Part shown: positions 19,901 to 58,562 of the stretch, in pieces
Position numbering within the stretch: the first letter of the stretch is position 1
Layout: every line of letters starts with the position of its first letter
Assembly (NCBI RefSeq): GCF_000013865.1
Contig: NC_007948.1
Location: forward strand, 1,364,001-1,428,000
Length of the DNA: 64,000 nucleotides
Origin: Polaromonas sp. JS666
GTDB taxonomy: Bacteria > Pseudomonadota > Gammaproteobacteria > Burkholderiales > Burkholderiaceae_C
Direction: 5' to 3'
The notes under the pieces: generated by a model
What the model saw: the letters and a program-made list of their open reading frames with translations, nothing else
What the model was told of the DNA's origin: nothing
Databases searched by the model: none
Position numbers and translations under genes: made by a program

Positions 19901-20005
19901 AACCGGGGCATTCGAGCTTACGCTAACGTGTGAGCTCCTGTGTAAAGAGCGCCGCAGAGGCGCGGTGGAAAAAGCACTGGAGCTTGATCGAATAGGCCCT
20001 GTAGC

Positions 20006-20060
20006 ACCTAACGAATTAAGCCGCCTCGTAAACCGGCTTGGGTATGAATGAATTGTTGCC
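20006..20060 (-). other. Integron attC-type recombination site
   Basis: On the minus strand the segment reads CAACAATTCATTC, AAGCCGG, a short variable loop, CGGCTTAATTC and GTTAGGT. This matches attC layout: R''-L''-loop-L'-R' with R' fitting GTTRRRY exactly and AAGCCG/CGGCTT pairing as L boxes. The last codons and stop of the neighbouring gene (20016) lie inside the site. Confidence 0.8.
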
Positions 20061-20501
20061 ACCGTACGCCAGCATCCCCAGATGAAAGCCAGAAACGGCA
20101 TTGATCTTGCCGCGCCAAAGAACACCTCCATTGGTAGGCATGCTGCCGTTTAGGAACTGAATCCTCGCATTTTGCAAATGTATGTATTGCGGCGGCATCG
20201 GCAGTTGCTTTCGCTTTGCTGGGTCGTAAATATCGCCGTACGCAGCGAACGAATTGTGAATTTCATCTTTGTCTTCGCCAGTCCATGCCGCGGAAAAGTC
20301 AGCAGCGAAGGTGTCAAAGTACTTCCTGCCGCCAATGAGGATTCCGGAGACTACGCTGCCGCCCAGCAAAAGCGTTATGCCAATTTCGTATTCATTCTCG
20401 TTGGCAAGTGAAACAAGCTGCTGGAGATAGTAGTCAACACTTTGACCATGAATCTCGCGCTCGCAGTCGATGGTGCTAGGTTCTTCAGATTTTTTGTTCA
20501 C
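20016..20501 (-). CDS. Integron cassette gene, possibly GvpU-like
   Basis: 161 residues. The central EYEIGITLLLGGSVVSGILI and GGRKYFD segments resemble proteins named GvpU-like (gas vesicle accessory) in other bacteria, but no gas vesicle genes are present and the assignment is weak. The rest (PPQYIHLQNARIQFLNG) is typical of this small family. The gene sits between two GTTAGGT core sites (20525 and 20012 on the minus strand) with GGAG before the start, so it is a complete single-gene cassette. The upstream leader is very short, typical of cassettes. Confidence 0.7.
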   Translation of the reverse strand: MNKKSEEPSTIDCEREIHGQSVDYYLQQLVSLANENEYEIGITLLLGGSVVSGILIGGRKYFDTFAADFSAAWTGEDKDEIHNSFAAYGDIYDPAKRKQLPMPPQYIHLQNARIQFLNGSMPTNGGVLWRGKINAVSGFHLGMLAYGGNNSFIPKPVYEAA

Positions 20502-20518
20502 AACGATCTCCTTGTGAT

Positions 20519-20550
20519 ACCTAACGAATGAAAGAAACTTCCCCGTCCCG
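20519..20550 (-). other. Cassette boundary core site plus a sequence shared with 56593-56625
   Basis: On the minus strand GTTAGGT marks the upstream cassette junction. The ~25 bp before it (GGGACGGGGAAGT then CTTTCATTC) recur before the GTTGAAC core at 56593. The shared block may be the L' half of a preceding attC or the end of an IS110-type element that targets attC. Confidence 0.55.
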
Positions 20551-20981
20551 AGCTAACTCTGCAGTCAATTCTAGGCGGCAGGTTTCGGGGGTGCATCCTC
20601 TAAATAGACTAGGACAACAAGAGCCGCCGTTTTCCTTGTATTCCGTCCTGGCTAGCGGCAACCCGGCCTGGCTGCATCCTTTGGCGCCAGTCGCTGCGCT
20701 TGGTGTCACGTCGGCTGCGGGCGCCAGGCCTGCATCCTGGAAAAACCGGCATGCCCCGGTGCCGCTACCGGGGGAACGAGGACGCTTGAGCGGGAGGGTT
20801 TTTGGGCTTCCCTTGTGCGTCAACTTCGGCATCAGAAGTTCTTTCGAGAACCGACTGGTTGACAAGGTCAGCCGCTGGCCATGATGCAGCTATCCAGAGC
20901 CTGAAGCACTCCGCAACGAAATAGAAGTCGCACATCAACTCATGATGTCGCATCAACGTTGCTGGACAGGGATGATGGGAG
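20551..20981. other. Stretch without a recognisable gene
   Basis: Both strands have open frames of 76-118 codons, but none shows a family match, a good ribosome-binding site or a sensible hydrophobicity pattern. The DNA is between the cassette and tRNA-Ser and is probably relic accessory sequence. Confidence 0.5.
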
Positions 20982-36493: not shown

Positions 36494-38899
36494 TCAGGCC
36501 GATGCCAGGCTGCTGTGATCGTTGCGATCGCTGCTGCGCTTGCGCCGCGCGCGCAGGTTCACCACTTCCCACCAGCCCGGCAACAGGCTCTGGATCTCAG
36601 GCCGGGTGAAGCGGTCATCCATCAGGTAGACCACGCCGCGGTCCGAGGTGGTGCGGATCACCCGTCCTGCCGCCTGCACCACTTTTTGCAGACCGGGGTA
36701 GAGATAGGTGTAGTCGTAACTTTGGCTGGCGCCAAAGTTGGTGCCCATGCGCTCCCTGATCTGCTCGTTCACCGGGTTGACTTGCGGCAGGCCCAGAGTG
36801 GCGATGAAGGCGCCGATCAGCCGGTCGCCCGGCAGGTCTATGCCTTCGGCGAACGAGCCGCCCAGCACGGCAAAGCCAATGCCTGTGGACGCCGGCGTGA
36901 AGCGCGCCAGAAACGCATCGCGCGCGGCTTCCTCCATGCCGCGCGTCTGCTCCCACATGGGGATATGCGGGTAGCGTTGCCTGAACAGCGCAGCCAGTTT
37001 TTGCAGGTAATCGTAGCTGCTCAGAAACGCCAGGTAGTTGCCGGGCTGGCCCTCATATTGCCGCGCCATCAGGTCCACGATGGGTGACAGCGAATCGTTG
37101 CGGTGCTGGAAGCGCGTAGAGATATCGCTGACCGCCTTCACGGCCAGCTGTTCGGCCAGAAAGGGCGACTGCACATCCGTCCAGACCGTGCCGGCGGGCA
37201 GGCCCAGGGTGTCGGTGTAGTAGTTTTTCGGGCTCAGCGTGGCCGAAAACAGGGCCACCGACTGCGCCGCCGCAAAGCGGGGCGCCAGGAAGGGCGCCGG
37301 CACCACATTGCGAATGTTCAGCTGGGCAGTGTCCGGGCCCGCCTGCAGGGCATTTTGTTCGCCGGGTTCCTGGCGCAGCGTCACGTCAAACAGCGAGTGC
37401 TCGCCAAACGCATCGGCCATGCGCGAGAAGTGCAAGGCCTCGAAGTAAAAATCCTGCAGGGCGCCGTCCACGCGGGTTGGGTTGGCCAGCAAAAAGTCGG
37501 TGATGTGGGTGAGGGCCTGCTGCAGCACCTTGAGAAAGCTGGCGGGCAGCTCGGGGTAGACCTGGTAGCTCTCCTGCCGTGCCTGCTGCGCCTGGTGCAG
37601 GTCCTGCAGGCTTTTGTCCAGCCGCTGCAGCGAAGCCTTCACCGCTTTGGGCGCCAGCGCATGAACCTGCTGCAGCTGGGCCTGGTCCAGCAGGGCCGAG
37701 TACATTTTTCGCCCGCGCTCGACCATGTTGTGCGCTTCATCCACCAGCACGCTCACGCGCCACTGGTTGGTGCTGGCCAGACTGTGCAGGAGCGCGCTGG
37801 TGTCAAAGTAATAGTTGTAGTCGCCCACCACCACATCCGACCAGGTGACCAGCTCCTGGCTCAGGTAGTAGGGGCAGACCTGGTGCGCCAGCGCGACTGC
37901 GCGCAGGGCGCTCTTGTCCAGCACGCCGCGCGCTGCTGCATGGCCTATCGCGGCGCTGCGCGCTTGCGGCAGGCGGTCGTAAAACCCTTTGGCCAGGGGA
38001 CATGAGTCGCCGTGGCAGGCCTTGTCGGGATGTTCGCAGGCCTTGTCGCGCGCCACCAGCTCCAACACGCGAAGGGGTAGGGGCAGAGGCGGGGGCTTAG
38101 CCTGTGTTTTCTCGGGTGCGGCGGTGCTGCTGGCCCGGATGCGTTCCAGTGCATCCAGTGCGAGCTTGCGGCCCGGGGTTTTGGCCGCCAGAAAAAACAG
38201 CTTGTCCAGTTGCTGCCCCGGGACCGCCTTGAGCAGCGGAAACACCGTGCCCATGGTCTTGCCGATGCCGGTGGGAGCCTGCGCCATCAGGCAGGTGCCG
38301 GCCTGGGCTGTTTTGTACACGGCCCCGGCCAGCGCGCGCTGCCCGGGCCGAAATTCGGGGTGCGGAAACTCCAGGGCCTTCAGGGCCGCATCGCGCGCTT
38401 TGCGGTGCGCCAGCTCCTGGCTGGCCCAGGCCAGAAAGCGTTCGCACTGCGTTTCAAAATACTGTTTCAGCGACGCGGCCGAAAATTGCTCGGTGAGCGG
38501 CGTTTCCTGCAGGCTGGCCACGTCAAAGTAGACCAGCGTCAGGTTGATGTCTGGAAGGTTTTTTTCGGCGCACAGCAGCCAGCCATAAATCTTCAGCTGC
38601 GCCCAGTGCAGCTGCCTGCGGTTCTCGGCCATCGCATGCAGATCGCCGCGAAAGGTCTTGACCTCTTCGAGCTGGTTGAGCGCCGGGTCATAGCCATCAG
38701 CCCGGCCTCGCACGGTCAGCGTCTTGTAGTCGCCCTGCAGGCTCACTTCCGCCTGGTAGGACTCGCCGCGCCGCGCTGCCACCAGCGCATGGCCGGCCAT
38801 GCCTTCCTGCGCGGAGGGCGATGGCGTAAAGCGCAGGTCGAGGTCACCATGCTTGGCGGTGAACGCGCACAGGGCCCTGACGGCTACAAGGTATTTCAA
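36494..38899 (-). CDS. DinG/XPD-type helicase with N-terminal PD-(D/E)XK nuclease
   Basis: 801 residues. The first ~170 hold a Cas4-like nuclease fold: GRADGYDPALNQLEEVKT supplies the Asp and ExK motif. Then SF2 helicase motifs: APTGIGKTMGTVFPLL (Walker A), an Fe-S cysteine set (CEHPDKACHGDSC and CPYYLSQEL), VLVDEAHNM (DEAH), SATLSPKNYY, GSFAEGIDLPG and QAAGRVIRT. XPD-like enzymes unwind 5'-3'; the nuclease fusion suggests a role in replication-associated repair. It stands alone, convergent with the micropeptide. Confidence 0.88.
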   Translation of the reverse strand: MKYLVAVRALCAFTAKHGDLDLRFTPSPSAQEGMAGHALVAARRGESYQAEVSLQGDYKTLTVRGRADGYDPALNQLEEVKTFRGDLHAMAENRRQLHWAQLKIYGWLLCAEKNLPDINLTLVYFDVASLQETPLTEQFSAASLKQYFETQCERFLAWASQELAHRKARDAALKALEFPHPEFRPGQRALAGAVYKTAQAGTCLMAQAPTGIGKTMGTVFPLLKAVPGQQLDKLFFLAAKTPGRKLALDALERIRASSTAAPEKTQAKPPPLPLPLRVLELVARDKACEHPDKACHGDSCPLAKGFYDRLPQARSAAIGHAAARGVLDKSALRAVALAHQVCPYYLSQELVTWSDVVVGDYNYYFDTSALLHSLASTNQWRVSVLVDEAHNMVERGRKMYSALLDQAQLQQVHALAPKAVKASLQRLDKSLQDLHQAQQARQESYQVYPELPASFLKVLQQALTHITDFLLANPTRVDGALQDFYFEALHFSRMADAFGEHSLFDVTLRQEPGEQNALQAGPDTAQLNIRNVVPAPFLAPRFAAAQSVALFSATLSPKNYYTDTLGLPAGTVWTDVQSPFLAEQLAVKAVSDISTRFQHRNDSLSPIVDLMARQYEGQPGNYLAFLSSYDYLQKLAALFRQRYPHIPMWEQTRGMEEAARDAFLARFTPASTGIGFAVLGGSFAEGIDLPGDRLIGAFIATLGLPQVNPVNEQIRERMGTNFGASQSYDYTYLYPGLQKVVQAAGRVIRTTSDRGVVYLMDDRFTRPEIQSLLPGWWEVVNLRARRKRSSDRNDHSSLASA

Positions 38900-49525: not shown

Positions 49526-50230
49526 ATGACCCAACTCTCTGCCTTCCCCATCACCCGGAAATGGCCCGCCCAGTATCCCGACCGGATCCAGCTTTACTCC
49601 TTGCCCACGCCCAATGGCGTCAAGGCATCGATCATGCTCGAAGAGACCGGCCTGCCGTATGAGCCTCACCTCGTCAGCTTTGAAACCCGTGACCAGATGT
49701 CGCCGGAATTTCTATCGCTGAGTCCCAACAACAAGATTCCCGCCATCCTCGACCCGAACGGCCCCGGTGGCAAGCCGTTGGCATTGTTCGAATCGGGCGC
49801 CATATTGCTGTACCTGGCCGACAAGTCCGGTCAATTCATGCCGCAAGATGCCGCCGCCCGCCACGAGACGATCCAGTGGCTGATGTTCCAGATGGGCGGC
49901 ATCGGCCCCATGTTCGGCCAGCTCGGTTTCTTTCACAAGTTCGCCGGCAAGGCGTACGAAGACAAGCGCCCGCGCGACCGCTATGTGGCCGAGTCAAAAC
50001 GCCTGCTCGGCGTACTGGAGCAGCGGCTGGAAGGCCGCAGCTGGCTCATGGGCGATAGCTACTCTATCGCCGACATCGCCATCTTCCCCTGGGTGCGCAA
50101 CCTCGTCGGGTTTTACGAGGCGGGTGAGCTGGTGGGGTTTGACGGCTTCCCGAATGTGAAGCGGGTGCTGGAAGCGTTTGTTGCGAGGCCGGCGGTTGCC
50201 AGGGGCCTGGCGATACCGAAACGGGGTTGA
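49526..50230 (+). CDS. Glutathione S-transferase, YfcG/YghU-like
   Basis: 234 residues. N-terminal thioredoxin-like domain with TPNGVKASIMLEETGLPYEPH and NKIPAILDPNGPGG, ESGAILLYLA; the C-terminal helical domain contains QMGGIGPMFGQLGFFHKFAGKAYED and SYSIADIAIFPW. The Nu-class pattern (Thr-Asn near residue 28) suggests disulfide reduction using glutathione. It lies ~98 bp after the ABM gene and may share the SoxR-regulated transcript. Remnants of a related gene occur at 51908 and 57075. Confidence 0.92.
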   Translation: MTQLSAFPITRKWPAQYPDRIQLYSLPTPNGVKASIMLEETGLPYEPHLVSFETRDQMSPEFLSLSPNNKIPAILDPNGPGGKPLALFESGAILLYLADKSGQFMPQDAAARHETIQWLMFQMGGIGPMFGQLGFFHKFAGKAYEDKRPRDRYVAESKRLLGVLEQRLEGRSWLMGDSYSIADIAIFPWVRNLVGFYEAGELVGFDGFPNVKRVLEAFVARPAVARGLAIPKRG

Positions 50231-51503: not shown

Positions 51504-51854
51504 ATGGCAACCAGCAGTCTTTTCGGCGGCCTGCACGCTCCCGAACATGTCCGGGGCAAGGACACCAACGCACTTGGCCCCAGCGACAACTCCGACAGCG
51601 GCAGCGATGCCCAGGGCGCCTACGGTGACGACGAAATGTCCAGCGACAGCGACGCCGTGGGCACTGGCGAGCGCGCGTCGGCGGGCGCAGGCATGGACCC
51701 GTCGGACGCAGACATCCTGCCCGACCATATTGAAGGGGAAGACGACGACGAGTCCTCGTCCGATGTCGACTCCGACTTTGACGCCGCCGTAGCCGACGTG
51801 CATGACCTGGCGGTGGATGAGTCGGATGAGGAAGATGAAGACAAGGACGGCTAG
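51504..51854 (+). CDS. Asp/Glu/Ser-rich acidic protein
   Basis: 116 residues, strongly acidic (roughly 40 percent Asp+Glu in the C-terminal half), no Cys, predicted disordered. Starts MATSSLFGGLHAPEHVRGK and contains GMDPSDADILPDHIEGED and DLAVDESDEEDED. Similar proteins exist in Comamonadaceae without known function; charge suggests metal or basic-protein binding. The part from residue ~48 onward is duplicated at 56818 fused to another N-terminus. Confidence 0.8.
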   Translation: MATSSLFGGLHAPEHVRGKDTNALGPSDNSDSGSDAQGAYGDDEMSSDSDAVGTGERASAGAGMDPSDADILPDHIEGEDDDESSSDVDSDFDAAVADVHDLAVDESDEEDEDKDG

Positions 51855-51965
51855 CAAGGACGGCTAGGGCTGAATTCGCGTGCCTTCCTGATGCCGGCCT
51901 GCCGGGCTGGCCCGGTTTCTTCCGCAAGTTCGCCGGAAAAAACTACGAGGAAACGTGCACGCCAC
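51645..51965 (+). repeat. Direct repeat copy A (acidic C-terminus plus GST remnant)
   Basis: Matches 56818-57142 in the same orientation, nearly 90 percent identical in the coding part by eye and weaker after the stop codon. The repeat starts inside the coding sequence (GACAGCGACGCC) and continues into the downstream GST remnant. Confidence 0.85.
51908..51960 (+). pseudogene. Glutathione transferase remnant A
   Basis: About 17 codons translating as PGFFRKFAGKNYEE correspond to GFFHKFAGKAYED of the intact GST at 49526. The reading frame is lost on both sides. Confidence 0.65.
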
Positions 51966-52044
51966 CTGCAAGTTTTGAATCCAGATGTCTGCCAAGCGTG
52001 TCGCGCCTGTGGCCCATTGGCAATGGCGCGCTCTACATTCCGTA

Positions 52045-52131
52045 GGCGGCGATCGACGCTCCGGGCAAGTCGGAATCGTGCGCGGTGCTGTGTTGATTCA
52101 CCACCGTGTGATCGAGCCGTTCAAAGAAGAA
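52045..52131. repeat. Local direct repeat, copy 1
   Basis: About 87 bp nearly identical to 52587-52673 (same direction), including GTGCGCGGTGCTGTGTTGATTC. This copy contains the 3' end of the minus-strand gene at 52098. Confidence 0.85.
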
Positions 52132-53033
52132 CCGTGCTGCGGTATCCCCGTCGTGGCTCGCTCGTTGATCTGATCGGCGTCTCCTTGCGCTTTCGCAGCG
52201 GCCTGATTTGCCGTGACCAACTCTTGCAGTTTGGATATTTCAGCTTCAAGGTTGGCGATGCCCTTGGCATAGCTTGCTGTCACGCCTGTGCTGTCATTCA
52301 GGGCACCGCGCGCCTGCCTGTCGGCCAGGGTTTGCTGCAGCTGCGCGAGCTTGGCTTTGGGCGTTTCATCCTTGCCCAAGTCGGCCATACCCTGCCAGGC
52401 CTTCCCACCGGCGCCCTTGACGGCATCCCAGAAGGCTTCAATCGACCCTTTGTTTTCCTTGGCCATGGCCGCAATGGCATCCATGGCTTCGGTGGCCCGG
52501 GTCTGTACCAGCACGTCCGCTTCCTGCTGTTTTCCCTGCTCGGCAAGCGCATGGGCTTGCTGGTAGGTGACGACGGAGTCCCCATACGCGGCGATGGACG
52601 CTCCGGGCAGGTCGGATTCGTGCGCGGTGCTGTGTTGATTCACAACCGAGTGATCGAGCCGTTCAAAGATAAAGTGTCTTTCCGCAACTGTTTTGGTCTG
52701 AGCACGGGTCGGCGCGGCCACGGCGGCGCCTGCGTCGGGCACGCTTGAACCGCAGGCAACGAGCAGTCCACCGAGAATCACGACGCCTATCAGGCCGCAA
52801 GCTCTCAGCGCGATGGAAGCGATAGGCGGGCGCTGCCGTCCGCGGCTGAAGGTCCGTCTGAGCCCTCGAAGCAGCGGTGCCACGATCAAGCGATCGATTT
52901 CCTTAGCCCGGGTTTCGCGGGCTTTACGCTCAACTTGCTCTCGCAGGTTCAGGTTGCGGTTGCGGTTGCGGCGGTAAGCTTCGTAGATGACGTTTCCCAT
53001 GGTGGTTTCTCCGGCATTGGGTTTCTTTGTCAT
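52098..53033 (-). CDS. Hypothetical protein with internal membrane/lipobox segment
   Basis: 311 residues. A basic N-terminus (EAYRRNRNRNLNLREQVERK) of ~75 residues precedes a hydrophobic segment ending LLVACGSS, which looks like a lipoprotein signal in the middle of the protein. If translation begins near residue 78 it would be a normal lipoprotein; the longer form could be two genes joined. The rest is helical with Ala/Gln/Lys heptads. The C-terminal ~12 residues arise from duplicated DNA (52045-52131), so the original end may be altered. No family recognised. Confidence 0.6.
   Translation of the reverse strand: MTKKPNAGETTMGNVIYEAYRRNRNRNLNLREQVERKARETRAKEIDRLIVAPLLRGLRRTFSRGRQRPPIASIALRACGLIGVVILGGLLVACGSSVPDAGAAVAAPTRAQTKTVAERHFIFERLDHSVVNQHSTAHESDLPGASIAAYGDSVVTYQQAHALAEQGKQQEADVLVQTRATEAMDAIAAMAKENKGSIEAFWDAVKGAGGKAWQGMADLGKDETPKAKLAQLQQTLADRQARGALNDSTGVTASYAKGIANLEAEISKLQELVTANQAAAKAQGDADQINERATTGIPQHGSSLNGSITRW
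52587..52673. repeat. Local direct repeat, copy 2
   Basis: Partner of 52045-52131, lying inside the coding part of the minus-strand hypothetical gene (segment HSVVNQHSTAHESDLPGAS). Confidence 0.85.
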
Positions 53034-53367
53034 ATGCAGCTCCTGGTGAGAAGTGTCGTGGTGAAGTCCATCGCGCCAAGTGAGTGCGACCTCGCCGCGA
53101 TGCGCACAGTGCGTCCTGGTCAGGTTGTGAGCTTAGGCAATCACCCTGGCCGCCGCGTCATCGGAAGCGATGATGCAAGGAGGTCCCTGGCCAGAATCAG
53201 GGTTTCCCTGACCCCGGATCGGGGGCCTGCCCCGATGGCCCGCTCTGCGCGCGGGCGATAAGGTGGGCCTCAGGTTCACGGCCCAAGAGAGGTCACCCGG
53301 TTCGATAGGAAAAGGAAAAGGTTAAGGGCATGGCTTCTCGACATTCTTCGGATAGCAAGGTTTTACC
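53034..53367. other. Divergent intergenic region before LuxR gene
   Basis: No gene. Two hairpins are visible: TCATCG-GAAG-CGATGA (53159-53174) and ATCGGGG...CCCCGAT (53218-53236). They may belong to regulatory or relic sequence. Confidence 0.4.
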
Positions 53368-54525
53368 GTGATCGGGCTGGAGGGAGTTTCCGCTCAGGAG
53401 CTGTCCGACCTGATAGGGGCGATCTATGACTGTGCGCTCGATCCGCAGCGCTGGCCGGCCACTTGCCGAAAGGTTGCAGATCTCTGTGAAAGCACAGCGG
53501 GCGGAATATGCGTTCATGATCTGCGGCACGTGCAAAATGACCAGCTGTTCGTCTTCGGGTATCAGCCAGAATTTCTGGGGAAGTTGGGAAGTCACTACGC
53601 GGAAAGTCCCATGGCCGCTGCGGATGTCGTCTCGGATATCGGCGACGTCAGCGCCCTCTCCATGGAGCGTTACCAGCTGCTCGAAAGCCGGTTCTTTCGA
53701 GAGGTGCTAAAGCCGTTTGGACTGCTGGACATGATCTGGTTTCCCGCGTTGCGGACCGGAGGGCGCATGGCTTCCATGCATGCCTCCCGGAGCGAGACGG
53801 CCCCGCATTTTCAGCAGCGTGATGTCAGTCTGTTCAAGCTTCTTTCTCCGCATGTATGCCGAGCACTCGCCATCTCCGATGTGCTCGATATCAGGGCGCT
53901 CAGGTCGGAGATGCTCGAAAAAACGCTGGATGGACTTGTTGCCGGTGTTTTCCTCACGGCGCGCGATGGTCACGTCGTTTACATGAACCAGGCTGCCGAG
54001 CGCCAGATCAAAACCGGCAATTCGATTCGTCTCGTCAACAATCGGCTTTCTCCCACCGATTCCGCGGCGCGCGCTGCACTGTCGAAGGCGATTGAAGAGG
54101 CGGCGCGCGACGACGCCGAAATGGGTATGAGCAAACATTCCGTGGCGATTCCAGACAGCCTCGGCGGCGGCTACGTTGCGACCCTCCTGCCGATTGAGAG
54201 CGGTCAGCGCCGCGGCATTCTTGCACCGTTTGCCGCATCGGTCGCAGTGTTCACGCAGGATCCCGTTCAGGCGCCACTCATGCCGGGTGAGGCCTTCGCC
54301 AGGCTGCATGGGCTCACCGGCGGCGAACTGCGCGTGCTGCTGGCGCTTTCCCAGGGGCTGGGCGGCATGGAGGTGGCCGACATGCTCGGCATCGGCGAGT
54401 CGACTATTCGCACCCACCTGCAGCACATGTTCTCCAAGACCGGCACGTCCAGGCAGGCCGACCTCCTGCGCCTGTTGCATAACTCGGCGCCGCCGATTCG
54501 TACCCTGTCAACGACTGCCCATTGA
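53368..54525 (+). CDS. LuxR-family transcriptional regulator
   Basis: 385 residues starting with GTG 53368. The C-terminal HTH is clear: LTGGELRVLLALSQGLGGMEVADMLGIGESTIRTHLQHMFSKTGTSRQADLL in two halves of the classical fold. The N-terminal ~180 residues have no receiver; a central region DGLVAGVFLTARDGHVVYMNQAAER resembles a PAS fold. Similar solitary PAS-LuxR proteins occur in Bradyrhizobium and Burkholderiales. Target genes unknown. A 9-bp inverted repeat CCCATTGAG/CTCAATGGG straddles its stop codon and may terminate it. Confidence 0.85.
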   Translation: MIGLEGVSAQELSDLIGAIYDCALDPQRWPATCRKVADLCESTAGGICVHDLRHVQNDQLFVFGYQPEFLGKLGSHYAESPMAAADVVSDIGDVSALSMERYQLLESRFFREVLKPFGLLDMIWFPALRTGGRMASMHASRSETAPHFQQRDVSLFKLLSPHVCRALAISDVLDIRALRSEMLEKTLDGLVAGVFLTARDGHVVYMNQAAERQIKTGNSIRLVNNRLSPTDSAARAALSKAIEEAARDDAEMGMSKHSVAIPDSLGGGYVATLLPIESGQRRGILAPFAASVAVFTQDPVQAPLMPGEAFARLHGLTGGELRVLLALSQGLGGMEVADMLGIGESTIRTHLQHMFSKTGTSRQADLLRLLHNSAPPIRTLSTTAH

Positions 54526-54624
54526 GTCCAGAGAGTCCAGGGAGGCTGACCTCAATGGGCTGCACAGTCGACCTGCGGCCCGGTTCAAGGCGACGTTACT
54601 TTCTTCCGAGATATCATCAAGTCA

Positions 54625-54948
54625 ATGCGACGAGTGCTCTTCATCTGCAGCAGGAATAGGCTTCGCAGTCCCACTGCAGAACGTGTGTTTTCAGCCATGC
54701 CCGATATAGAAACGGATTCCGCTGGCTTGGCATCGGATGCAGATTGCCCGGTAAGTTCCGACCAGATTGAGTGGGCGGACGTCATCTTCGTCATGGAAAA
54801 ACGGCATCGCGTGCAGCTTGCGCAGAGATTCACGCGGTATCTTGAAGGAAAGAAAGTCGTGTGCCTGGATATTCAAGACAACTACGAGTTCATGCAGCCT
54901 GAGCTCATCTCATTGCTGGAGAAGAGAGTGCCACCCCACTTGCGGTAA
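54625..54948 (+). CDS. Low-molecular-weight phosphotyrosine phosphatase-like protein
   Basis: 107 residues. Starts MRRVLFICSRNRLRSPTAERVF; the LMW-PTP loop would be CxxNxxRS, and here Cys-Ser-Arg-Asn-Arg-Leu-Arg-Ser keeps Cys, Asn and the Arg-Ser end. The C-terminal ADVIFVMEKRH holds a normal D-V-I-F-V-M segment, but the general-acid Asp-Pro pair is replaced (LDIQDNYEF). These short phosphatase-like proteins are frequent in integron cassettes. Here it is on the plus strand, opposite to the attC-linked genes that follow. Confidence 0.75.
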   Translation: MRRVLFICSRNRLRSPTAERVFSAMPDIETDSAGLASDADCPVSSDQIEWADVIFVMEKRHRVQLAQRFTRYLEGKKVVCLDIQDNYEFMQPELISLLEKRVPPHLR

Positions 54949-55061
54949 AGAAGCCATTTCTCCAACTGCTTTGCAGCGGGCCATCCTGGACTCCTGATGC
55001 TTGACGCATCAGCAGGCAGACAAATCACGCGCCAGGTCTGGCCTCATGGGCTAAAAATACA

Positions 55062-55122
55062 GCCTCAACGCCTGAATTAAACCGACCCGCGAAGCGGGTT
55101 CGGCTCGAATGAATTGTTGTAC
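55062..55122 (-). other. Integron attC-type recombination site
   Basis: Minus-strand order: GTACAACAATTCATTC, GAGCCGAACCCGC, TTC loop, GCGGGTCGG, TTTAATTCAGGCGTTGAGG. The arms fold with ACCCGC/GCGGGT and show the typical AACAATTC and TTAATTC blocks of attC. It lies ~60 bp after the DUF1801 gene stop, so that gene and site form a cassette. Confidence 0.8.
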
Positions 55123-55183
55123 GGCAATTACCTGAGCTTCACAGAACTCGCCCGCGGTAGGACCTGTTCAGGCGCGAAATCCC

Positions 55184-55603
55184 TTAGGACTTCGCTTTCT
55201 TCGAAGGTTTCGACTTGCCGGAACTGTTGAGGGAGACCGCTTGGCGAACGAGCGCCTTGAAGGCGGACTCGTCAACTTCCTCTCCTTCGTGGATGTCGAT
55301 CGCGCGGCGTACGTTTCCGTCGAGACTCGAGTTGAAGAGGCGGGCCGGATCCTTCAGAGACGCGCCCTTGGCGAAGGTAAGCTTCACCTTGTCCTTGTAG
55401 GATTCGCCAGTGCAGATGATGCCGTCGTGCGACCAAACCGGAGTGCCCATCCACTTCCACTCCTCGGCAACGTCCGGGTCTGCCTCCTGGATGAGCTGGC
55501 GCATTGTGCCGAGGGTTTCCCCACGCCAGTCCCCGAGTTCGGTGATTCTTTTCGAGATGAGCTCCGATGCCGACTGGCCTTGGCTCGCGTCCGATTTTTT
55601 CAT
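55184..55603 (-). CDS. DUF1801 (YdhG-like) protein, cassette gene
   Basis: 139 residues from ATG 55603 (AGGA upstream); an upstream open frame runs through the attC-like half-site and was dropped. Family pattern: [61 protein letters not shown] as the central block in two parts, with [21 protein letters not shown]. Function unknown; common as mobile cassette cargo. An attC-like site follows. Confidence 0.85.
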
Positions 55604-55647
55604 GGGCTCATCCTGGAAGTTCCAGATACAGTTTATTTGCAAGACCG

Positions 55648-55671
55648 TCGGCTGGAACGCATTGTTGGGCT
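55648..55671 (-). other. attC half-site (R''-L'' type)
   Basis: Minus-strand GCCCAACAATGCGTTCCAGC then CGAC: GCCCAAC fits RYYYAAC exactly and the following bases match attC left halves. The expected R' half is not recognisable before the DUF1801 start, so the site is truncated or diverged. Confidence 0.6.
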
Positions 55672-55710
55672 GCAAATTGGAAAAACAATGAGGCAAGGCT
55701 GGGGCTACTG

Positions 55711-56574
55711 TTACTTCGCCGCCGGTGCGTCCAGAAACGCGCTGATCGTCGGCACCAGCCACTCGGTGCGCGCCGTCACCTTCATGTGATCGGTGCCCGG
55801 GAGCACGGCCAGCTGCGCGTGTGGGAGTGCCCGGAACATCTCCACGGCGTGTTCGGGGCGTATGACGTCGGCGTCGCCGACGATAACGAGCGCCGGCGCG
55901 GTGATGCCGCGGATGGCGTCAGCCGGGATGTCCTTGAAGTCGCGCACGCGCTGGGCGGCCTTGTCGTGAAATAGTCGCAGGTTCTCGGGGTGCGGCGCGA
56001 CCTTGAGATACTCCTCCTGCAATTCCTTCGGCATGTTCTCCAGCCTGGCCTTGGCCATCGCCTCCCAAAGCCAGGGATAGGCGCCCTCGCGCCTGGATAA
56101 GGCCGATGCCAATACGAGCTTGCGCACGACTTTCGGATGCCGGATCGCCACCTGCAACGCGATCGTGCCGCCATTGCTGAAACCGAAGAGATCGGCTTTT
56201 TCGATGTGCAGGTAGTCCAACAACGCGGCAGTGTCGTCCGCCGACTGCTCGAAGCTGAACGGCCGGTCGGCAATGTCCGCCGTGTGCCCGTAGCCCTGCT
56301 GCTCGAACGCGATGATCTGCCGGTCACGCGCAAGCTCCGGCAGGATGTGGCCGAAAGAGGTCTTGATTGTGTCGCCGCCGCCATGCAGCAGCACGATTGG
56401 CGGTCGCGCCGGGTTGGCAATGCCGTGGATCTCAAAGTAAATTCGCAGGCCGTTGACGGGAGCATAGCCGGTCTGAACAGGCTGTTTGACGACGCCACTG
56501 GCGAGACTACGACTGCCGCAGCCAGATAACACAGCGACACCAAGTAGCAGGATTGCCACGCCGAAAATCTTCAT
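55711..56574 (-). CDS. Alpha/beta-hydrolase lipoprotein
   Basis: 287 residues from ATG 56574 (GAAGGAG upstream). A lipoprotein signal ends LSGCGS (Cys ~19). Hydrolase features: [12 protein letters not shown] (oxyanion), nucleophile elbow GFSNGG, acid in [12 protein letters not shown] and His in LPGTDHMKV. Homology suggests esterase or related activity at the envelope. It is bounded by a GTTGAAC core site upstream and the attC half-site downstream, consistent with cassette origin. Confidence 0.88.
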
Positions 56575-56592
56575 AGGTCTCCTTCTCTTTCG

Positions 56593-56625
56593 GTTCAACG
56601 AATGAAGGGACTTCCCCGTCCCAGG
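56593..56625 (-). other. Cassette core site plus sequence shared with 20519-20550
   Basis: Minus-strand GTTGAAC fits GTTRRRY exactly. Before it come GGGACGGGGAAGTCCCTTCATTC; GGGAC/GTCCC forms a small hairpin. The block recurs at the tRNA-Ser island cassette. It adjoins the left end of the IS110-type sequence. Confidence 0.6.
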
Positions 56626-56718
56626 CGAGCCGCAATCCGTCAGGGTTGCGGTTTACGGCAACTGAGTGCCACGATGGAGAGATCAAACTTTTCATCAACT
56701 CACTTGAGAGGAGAAATC

Positions 56719-57045
56719 ATGGCGATCGTAACCGTTGGAATTGACCTCGCCAAGAGCGTCTTTGCGGTGCATGGCGTGGATGAGTCCGGCAAGCCTGCGA
56801 TGGTGACGATGACCGGCGACAGCGACGCCGCAGGCACCGGCGAGCGCACATCGGTAGGCGCAGGCATGGACCCGTCGCGCGCAGACATCCTGCCCGACCC
56901 TATTGAAGGGGAAGAAGACGACGATGAGTCCTCGTCCGATGTCGACTCCGACTCCGACTTTGACGCCGCCGTAGCCGACGTGCATGACCTGGCGGTGGAT
57001 GAGTCGGATGATGAGGAAGACGAGGAGAAGGACGGCTCGGGCTGA
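56719..57045 (+). CDS. Chimeric ORF: IS110 transposase N-terminus fused to acidic protein
   Basis: 108 residues with GAGAGGAG before ATG 56719. Residues 1-29 (MAIVTVGIDLAKSVFAVHGV...) are the start of an IS110-family DEDD transposase, including the first catalytic Asp in GIDLAK. From about residue 33 (GDSDAAGTGERTSVGAG) the sequence switches to the acidic domain of the 51504 product, ending DDEEDEEKDGSG. The rest of the transposase is absent. The fusion is in frame and keeps the IS translation signals, so the acidic domain could be expressed from the IS promoter. Confidence 0.8.
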   Translation: MAIVTVGIDLAKSVFAVHGVDESGKPAMVTMTGDSDAAGTGERTSVGAGMDPSRADILPDPIEGEEDDDESSSDVDSDSDFDAAVADVHDLAVDESDDEEDEEKDGSG

Positions 57046-57142
57046 ATTCGAGTGCCTACTGATGCCTGCCTACTGGGCCAGCTTGGCTTCTTCCACAAGT
57101 TCACCGACAAAGGCTACGAAGACAAACCAAACGCCCACGCGA
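56818..57142 (+). repeat. Direct repeat copy B (acidic C-terminus plus GST remnant)
   Basis: Partner of 51645-51965. Small in-frame length differences (GAA, GACTCC and GAT insertions) lie in the acidic codons. Confidence 0.85.
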
Positions 57143-57165
57143 CTACTACGTTGCCAAATCCAAAA
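57075..57165 (+). pseudogene. Glutathione transferase remnant B
   Basis: GQLGFFHKFTDKGYEDK is read, then after a +1/-1 shift RPRDYYVAKSK; together they match residues ~131-160 of the GST at 49526. The rest of the gene is missing. Beyond it, to 57356, no gene is seen. Confidence 0.75.
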
Positions 57166-57356
57166 ATTCCTGCTCAGCGCGCCGCGGCTTAAAGGCTGTT
57201 CCTGGATCATGGACAACAGGGGCAAGGTCAGACTACCTGTTGATGAGGAACTCAGGGCGCTGCTTCGAATTTCAGTTATCGGCAATGTTCGATTGTCGAT
57301 GGCCAGCCCAGCACAGCTTTTATCCTACCGTCGCATGGCTGGTTCTTCTTTGATTG

Positions 57357-58562
57357 TCATGACGAAATTTCTTGAGATATAGCTACCGCACTGCCTGCCG
57401 CGAGCGTTAGCCCGAGTGCACCATGCCCAACATTCAAGAACAGATTTTTGAACCTGGAGCGCCCTACGATTGGGACGGAGGTCGGCGTGGCAGGCCGTAA
57501 ACCCGCCCAGGGGCGAGTGGACGACAAATCGCATAGGCCAGGAAAAACAGATTCAACCGACGCCACCATTTGCTTGATGCGGTCACCCGGAATGGAAAGA
57601 TCATGGCCGCCGATCTCGGCCATCGCGGCCACTCTCAGGTTTTGTGCGAGGGGAGCAAAAACTGTCTTGAGAGAAAGATCCGTGACGCTGGCTTTTGGCG
57701 CCTGGCGCCCACCCTTGATCGGCAGCGTGATGCTGTAGCCCTTGAGGGGGTAAACAGGAAGGTAAATACCGAGTTTCGACGCATGAGCTGGGGCCGTCAC
57801 GCCGGTGGCCAGCACGAAGGCGTCGGACCTCAGGTCGCCTTTGCTGGTGCGAACGGTATCCAGACGCTCACCCGAAGTGACAAAGTCATTCACCCTGGCA
57901 TTGAACGAAACATTCGCACCCATGCGCACCAAGCTTCGGAGCAGCTCCTGGCAGAGCTTGTAAGGGTCGGCCACCCGCTCTTCGGCAGTCCACACGCCGC
58001 CGGCGAATTTCCCGGAGTAGCTTTGCAATGAGGGTTCTTTTTCAACGCATTCCCGCACGCCCAGAATTTTCTGATGGCATCCGAACTGGCTTTGGAATTT
58101 GATCTGCGCTTCCTGGCGTTTCAGGCAGTCCCGGGTGGGGCAAAGGACCAGCTTCCCGTTGATTTTGTAATCAAACGACCAATCCTCGCTTTCCATCCAT
58201 CTCATCAGCGTGTCGCGGCTGAGCTGCGATAGCTGCAGCAGTGTTCGGGTCCCGCTTTCAACCTGTTTTGCGGTGCATGCCTTGAGAAACTGGAAGCCCC
58301 AGTACCACTGCCTCCAATCCAGCCTGGGCCGGAACCGAAGGGGCGACCCGCGTGAAAGCAACATGCCGGGAAGTCCGCCCAGGGTGTGCGGTGAGGCCAG
58401 TGGCTCCACATAGCTGTAGCTGAGCTGGGCCCCGTTGGCGTTGCTCGTTCCCAGGCCCGGACCGGCGGCCTCATCCACGAGGTGCACCTCATGCCCCATG
58501 CGGGCCAATTGATAGGCCGTCGAGCAGCCCACGATGCCGGCGCCGATAACGCAGACTTTCAT
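57357..58562 (-). CDS. DadA-type FAD-dependent D-amino acid dehydrogenase
   Basis: 401 residues. Rossmann FAD motif VIGAGIVGCSTAYQLARMGHEVHLVDE at the start, SNANGAQLSYSYVEPLASP as in DadA, and the C-terminal WAGLRPATPTSVPIVG and NVGHGALGLTLAAGSA. It would oxidise D-amino acids or N-substituted amino acids (opine-like) and pass electrons to quinones. Its ATG overlaps the upstream stop by 4 bp (58559-58562). Last gene of the operon. Confidence 0.9.
   Translation of the reverse strand: MKVCVIGAGIVGCSTAYQLARMGHEVHLVDEAAGPGLGTSNANGAQLSYSYVEPLASPHTLGGLPGMLLSRGSPLRFRPRLDWRQWYWGFQFLKACTAKQVESGTRTLLQLSQLSRDTLMRWMESEDWSFDYKINGKLVLCPTRDCLKRQEAQIKFQSQFGCHQKILGVRECVEKEPSLQSYSGKFAGGVWTAEERVADPYKLCQELLRSLVRMGANVSFNARVNDFVTSGERLDTVRTSKGDLRSDAFVLATGVTAPAHASKLGIYLPVYPLKGYSITLPIKGGRQAPKASVTDLSLKTVFAPLAQNLRVAAMAEIGGHDLSIPGDRIKQMVASVESVFPGLCDLSSTRPWAGLRPATPTSVPIVGRSRFKNLFLNVGHGALGLTLAAGSAVAISQEISS

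Follow-up and report, generated by a model that had tools for sequence, protein, structure and literature searches.

A chimeric open reading frame joining an IS1111-attC type left end to a truncated acidic-protein gene in Polaromonas sp. JS666 is probably an ordinary relic

The region analysed here is a 64,000-nucleotide window of a 5.2-Mb contig of Polaromonas sp. JS666. An intact glutathione transferase (GST) gene with Pfam GST_N/GST_C domains (49526-50230, forward strand) lies to the left of a complete gene for a 116-residue acidic protein (copy A; 51504-51854, forward strand). Copy A is followed by a GST remnant (51888-52024, forward strand), which is best preserved at 51904-51966 and aligns poorly over the remainder. 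A truncated acidic gene (copy B; 56809-57045, forward strand) was delimited by sequence alignment and is likewise followed by a GST remnant (57070-57215, forward strand), which runs past 57165 and ends in the alignment at about 57215. The two remnants resemble the intact GST gene, each being 74% identical to it over 58 nt. A search of the genome with the acidic protein gave two matches at E <= 10, and these are copies A and B. An 88-nt direct repeat of 92% identity (52040-52127 and 52582-52669) adjoins the GST remnant of copy A; in it, a segment from within the leftward ORF 52098-53033 recurs at the 3' end of that same ORF.

A preliminary description, made from the sequence of this DNA alone, reported two direct repeats that carry the same acidic coding end and a decayed GST segment, and the alignment blocks confirm them. 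Ungapped blocks pair 51636-51751 with 56809-56924 (89% identity), 51732-51841 with 56914-57023 (81%) and 51856-51885 with 57028-57057 (93%); in the gapped alignment of 51636-51842, 15 of 204 aligned columns differ. Common to both copies are approximately the last 70 acidic codons, then about 40 bases, then the GST remnant. The copies were also said to differ by in-frame indels only. This holds for the 3- and 6-nt gaps, which fall within GAC/GAA/TCC-like runs, but not for roughly 10 additional nt where the A frame ends (aligned as 3+7 or as 10), which are off-frame and have no counterpart in B. As a result of this 3' difference, A and B have different stops and different tails.

Copy A belongs to a family of 1021 proteins (protein database search, E <= 0.001), whose record titles name Polaromonas, Ramlibacter, Duganella and their relatives. 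One record is titled "Chemotaxis protein"; the acidic protein matched nothing in Pfam or NCBIfam. The protein is present in 17 of 61 genomes searched, its own included, and the 16 others have one match each, beginning at query residue 1 in 13 genomes and at residue 4 or 6 in three. In Polaromonas P2-4 an orthologue of A, 87% identical in the best segment, adjoins the same rhodanese gene (rhodanese protein 90% identical), and because the locus is kept in this way we take A to be the native copy. No GST match was found within 10 kb around the P2-4 orthologue. Whereas A is a full member of the family, B lacks the conserved first 44 or so residues. In an alignment of 14 sequences the conserved N-terminal GPSDNSDSGSD segment is missing from B, and the GTGER...DILPD segment is kept but altered at conserved places, including changes of D to R and H to P within DADILPDHIE.

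In place of its own N-terminal half, the acidic part of copy B continues the beginning of a transposase. ORF 56602-57045 is open and, read from the ATG at 56719, gives MAIVTVGIDLAKSVFAVHGVDESGKPAMV followed by the acidic segment. The resulting chimeric ORF (56719-57045, forward strand) encodes 108 amino acids, 28-29 transposase residues and a C-terminal acidic part, and one relative, P0121, is 99% identical. As first described, the acidic part lies in frame behind an IS110-type transposase start, with the ribosome-binding site and start codon of the IS intact; this start and residues 1-28 of a full IS110-family transposase share 79% identity. A full transposase is encoded elsewhere in the genome by a plasmid relative on another contig, and is a DEDD/Transposase_20 protein with matches to PF01548 and PF02371. 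The stub ORF in the window has no Pfam match and retains only transposase residues 1-28/29.

The junction lies inside the transposase gene, at codon 29 (about 56805), and not at an end of the IS. Here the IS and acidic sequences overlap at GGT(G)ACGA-like bases; likewise, in the DNA search the two halves of the query overlapped, the IS part extending to position 206 and the acidic part beginning at 194. A short shared sequence and no IS terminus at the join suit the illegitimate-recombination model, and we infer that the join was probably made by illegitimate recombination rather than by transposition. The earlier proposal that IS-linked recombination captured the acidic domain is not borne out, since the break falls within the transposase gene and a few shared bases suffice for a join. 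A break hot spot near codon 29 was considered and rejected, because transposase end points were scattered from residue 27 to residue 157 among 83 proteins; the survey used a hand-made consensus, and the 83 include P0122, an acidic homologue whose end point is meaningless.

The IS piece begins at about 56599, making it longer than originally stated, and stops near transposase codon 29 (56599-56805, about 207 bp, forward strand). An alignment with 31 other left ends, drawn from 29 loci, identifies it as the left end of an element of the IS1111-attC type. The IS1111-attC group, which reportedly includes ISKpn4 and ISPst6, is said to have been treated by Tetu and Holmes in 2008 and by Post and Hall in 2009. 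The left motif, CGAATGA followed by AAGGGACTTCCCC, is exact in 26 of the 31 other left ends (exact CGAATGAAAGGGACTTCCCC, 26/31 left ends compared). The right motif, GGGGAAGCCCTT followed by GTA, is exact in 11 of 17 loci (exact GGGGAAGCCCTTGTAG downstream of the transposase match, 11/17). The loci that miss it are L127, L140, L130, L118, L126 and L005, three of which have short flanks (225, 360 and 219 nt), and it is also found in L120 and L125, both with broken transposase genes. In a published account, the subterminal inverted repeats of IS1111-attC elements lie 7 bp in from the left terminus and 3 bp in from the right (PMC11187229). In the window the left subterminal repeat is present, one A short. 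A search of the window for the right-end motif gave two matches with three mismatches, at 37553 and 43295, both far from B, where 0.53 would be expected by chance. Thus, of the IS110 ends anticipated beside the fusion, the left was found, from about 56599, and the window yielded no right one.

Elements of the IS1111-attC group insert into integron attC sites, at one of the ends, and the noncoding region downstream of their transposase gene gives a guide RNA that matches the target and the ends. Full-length relatives of the stub share with this group a DEDD transposase, subterminal inverted repeats, a long downstream region and attC-like flanks; segments like CTAACGAATGA and GACCGTTTGTAGT were recognised by eye downstream of their transposase genes. 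The stub in the window, in contrast, has neither these segments nor a downstream region, and its right end and all of the transposase past codon 29 are missing. Its start point is a GTTGAAC core (56593-56599, reverse strand), which we take to fit the attC end consensus GTTRRRY. RYYYAAC stands at the same place, directly before GAATGA, in 18 of the 31 other left ends, a count made without a chance control, and the right flanks of the relatives often resemble attC arms when judged by eye.

To the left of the IS are two cassette-like genes, both transcribed leftward. The nearer is an alpha/beta hydrolase gene (55711-56574, reverse strand; Pfam Abhydrolase_1), whose ATG at 56574 is 18 bases from the GTTGAAC core (the listed ORF starts with TTG at 56598), and the next is a DUF1801 gene (55184-55603, reverse strand; Pfam DUF1801, E 4e-22). 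At the 3' end of the latter, two genes from the core at which the IS left end begins, the sequence at 55062-55127 (reverse strand) has similar counterparts in 3581 of 72,556 plasmid records. Of the best 20 matches, the majority are at catB8, catB3 or catB10, with 82-86% identity, and no record covers 80% of the 86-base query. The catB genes are known integron cassettes. From this similarity we read 55062-55127 as an attC; the matching plasmid records carry no attC annotation. Behind the abhydrolase gene, what may be half of a degenerate attC (55640-55672, reverse strand) was recognised by eye and had no similarity match. None of three attC candidates gave a significant fold as single-stranded DNA, including the half site and 55062-55127 taken alone (z -1.33), and attC scans, strict and relaxed, found nothing above shuffled sequence and also missed the attC supported by similarity. 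An integron-integrase model had 21 matches in the genome, none over the cut-off, the best scoring 115.8 of 265 bits. A CALIN has two or more attC sites and no integron integrase. The surroundings of copy B resemble one in their cassette-like genes, their recognisable attC and the genome's having no integrase over the cut-off, but differ in that only one attC is supported by a search and the second was seen by eye only.

More stubs of the same left end are present on the same contig (L004, L006 and L007) and at 20522 in the window. Those of L004 and L006 appear by eye to stand directly in front of cassette-like genes. The stub at 20522 is about 40 bp long and lies, with a GTTAGGT core, in front of a leftward gene for 161 amino acids, which has an attC-like 3' end at about 20003-20062 with two weak plasmid matches; this segment (20003-20557) looks like a lone gene cassette. 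A preferential keeping of left over right ends was considered and not upheld, the right-end queries being insensitive, with few matches, mostly to one other query segment.

A match across the junction was found in only one of 87 genomes of the genus, that of JS666 itself; 27 of the 87 matched the chimera query in any part, those besides JS666 over only one of its two halves. Similarly, 208 of 399 genomes of the family match some part of it, and a whole match occurs in the genome of JS666 alone among the matches listed. Among the best 120 of 185 protein matches is one further chimera, P0121, which is 99% identical, has an identical acidic part and is encoded on a 5.43-Mb contig. The chimera has therefore persisted. 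Of 82 listed proteins with the same transposase start (P0123-P0204), three have an unrelated Pfam domain (Abhydrolase_1, DUF1585 and Phage_integrase); fusions of this start to other sequence thus occur now and then. In P0130, P0203 and P0195 the transposase start is fused to a tyrosine-recombinase-like C-terminus, identified by a Phage_integrase Pfam match for P0195 and by eye for P0130 and P0203. A literature search for in-frame IS110 chimeras returned no paper combining all of the terms.

Over the region they share, A and B differ by 4 synonymous and 8 nonsynonymous changes (dS 0.10, dN 0.06), against 13 and 10 between A and the P2-4 orthologue (dS 0.40, dN 0.08); B and P2-4 differ by 11 and 13. 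The recent origin suggested for the duplication is partly right, in that A and B have the lower dS. With a neutral expectation of 0.76 nonsynonymous, A and P2-4 are clearly constrained (dN/dS 0.20, p 0.0008), whereas the ratio for A and B, the comparison by which selection was to be judged, is not distinguishable from neutral (0.61, p 0.50). Four of the five changes on the B branch are nonsynonymous and one is synonymous (p 1.0), a ratio that fits neutrality given the 0.76 expected, and two of four are nonsynonymous on the A branch (p 0.24); these counts are small, and two three-way sites were not assigned to a branch. Trials with 5, 10 and 20 random substitutions preserved the open frame in 90%, 81% and 65% of cases, and since 81% survive 10 changes an open B frame is unsurprising. 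The open frame and in-frame indels, offered at first as a sign of selection, thus suggest it weakly at best, the indels lying in repeat-like runs. One observation does favour it in spite of a substitution pattern like that seen without constraint. Between A and B, 19 of 239 columns differ in the acidic region (51636-51885) and 16 of 63 in the GST remnant (Fisher p 0.0005), the acidic part being about 7% diverged and the adjacent remnant 25%; for synonymous sites alone (4 of 43) against the remnant, p is 0.045. Neutral decay of both parts does not predict this inequality, which could reflect gene conversion, a degree of constraint, or misalignment of the remnant with its many gaps.

Expression of the chimera from IS signals, as had been proposed, is doubtful. 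The stub contains no promoter-like site; the only one in 56400-57400, searched on both strands, lies some 275 bases ahead of the start codon, at 56414-56443, and the gene upstream of the chimeric ORF is divergent. Moreover, in IS1111/IS110 elements, according to the same source, the promoter that presumably drives the transposase is created at the joint between the two ends in the circular form (PMC11187229). A function of the chimeric ORF is unlikely.

We consider it likely, with a probability of roughly 0.8, that the chimeric ORF reflects a chance join within decaying DNA, an ordinary relic; most likely it is not a functional gene. An IS1111-attC type element would have inserted at the attC-like core before the cassette-like abhydrolase gene, as its left end and its relatives suggest, and the second copy of the acidic gene and GST remnant would have arisen, going by dS over few sites, after the split from the P2-4 lineage. 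Illegitimate recombination at the GGT(G)ACGA-like bases may then have fused the transposase, at codon 29, with the acidic copy near its middle; the remainder of the IS and the acidic N-terminus would have been lost. The frame would be open because the join fell in phase by chance and because acidic, GC-rich sequence has few stops. This reading draws on the left end, the subterminal repeats, the attC-like flanks of the relatives, the attC further left and the genome's having no integrase over the cut-off, and also on the conserved A locus, the restricted spread, the dS and dN values, the lost N-terminal half, the other stubs and the similar fusions elsewhere. Against simple decay stand the lower divergence of the acidic part than of the GST remnant, the persistence of P0121 and five proteins that are nearer to A than B is.

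These five, the metagenome proteins P0006, P0003, P0007, P0002 and P0005 (the last by 0.001), come from a tree of C-terminal protein segments, by which B may be older than the closest relatives of A, or foreign. We therefore weighed whether B is a second allele from another Polaromonas, perhaps brought in with the cassette region, and not a duplicate of A. Its longer C-terminal tail, like those of P0006, P0007 and P0008, would agree with this, but A is the nearest protein to B in the same tree, the GST remnant is joined at the same place in A and B and is missing in P2-4, and the long B branch may reflect decay, with about 70 residues compared; on balance a foreign allele seems unlikely. Gene conversion between A and B, homogenising the acidic parts and leaving the GST remnants to drift, would account for divergence that differs along the repeat and is compatible with an accidental junction. 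We give it similarly low odds, as at alignment columns 51 and 59 B agrees with P2-4 in states no longer present in A, and the several indels between the copies imply that any conversion was incomplete or not recent.

The unequal divergence would also suit a new gene, made by IS-linked recombination, with IS signals driving its expression and selection maintaining it, as would the intact ribosome-binding site and start codon, the open frame and the chimera on a second contig (P0121). Such a gene is nevertheless quite improbable given neutral-like B-branch substitutions, a stub without a promoter-like site, a junction away from the IS end with no right end found in the window, and the missing conserved N-terminal half. 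Most improbable of all, in our view, is that IS1111-attC left-end stubs act as portable start signals, a ribosome-binding site and about 29 codons, that repeatedly make in-frame chimeras with adjacent gene fragments, the acidic one being kept and expressed.

The chimera is thus best regarded as a real but ordinary relic, and no result here shows that the fused gene does anything. Were it expressed, it would clearly exemplify an insertion sequence giving a start and a new N-terminus to a fragment of a host protein. As a relic, it indicates that stubs of attC-targeting elements, together with decayed duplicates, can yield open, annotatable ORFs that resemble new genes.
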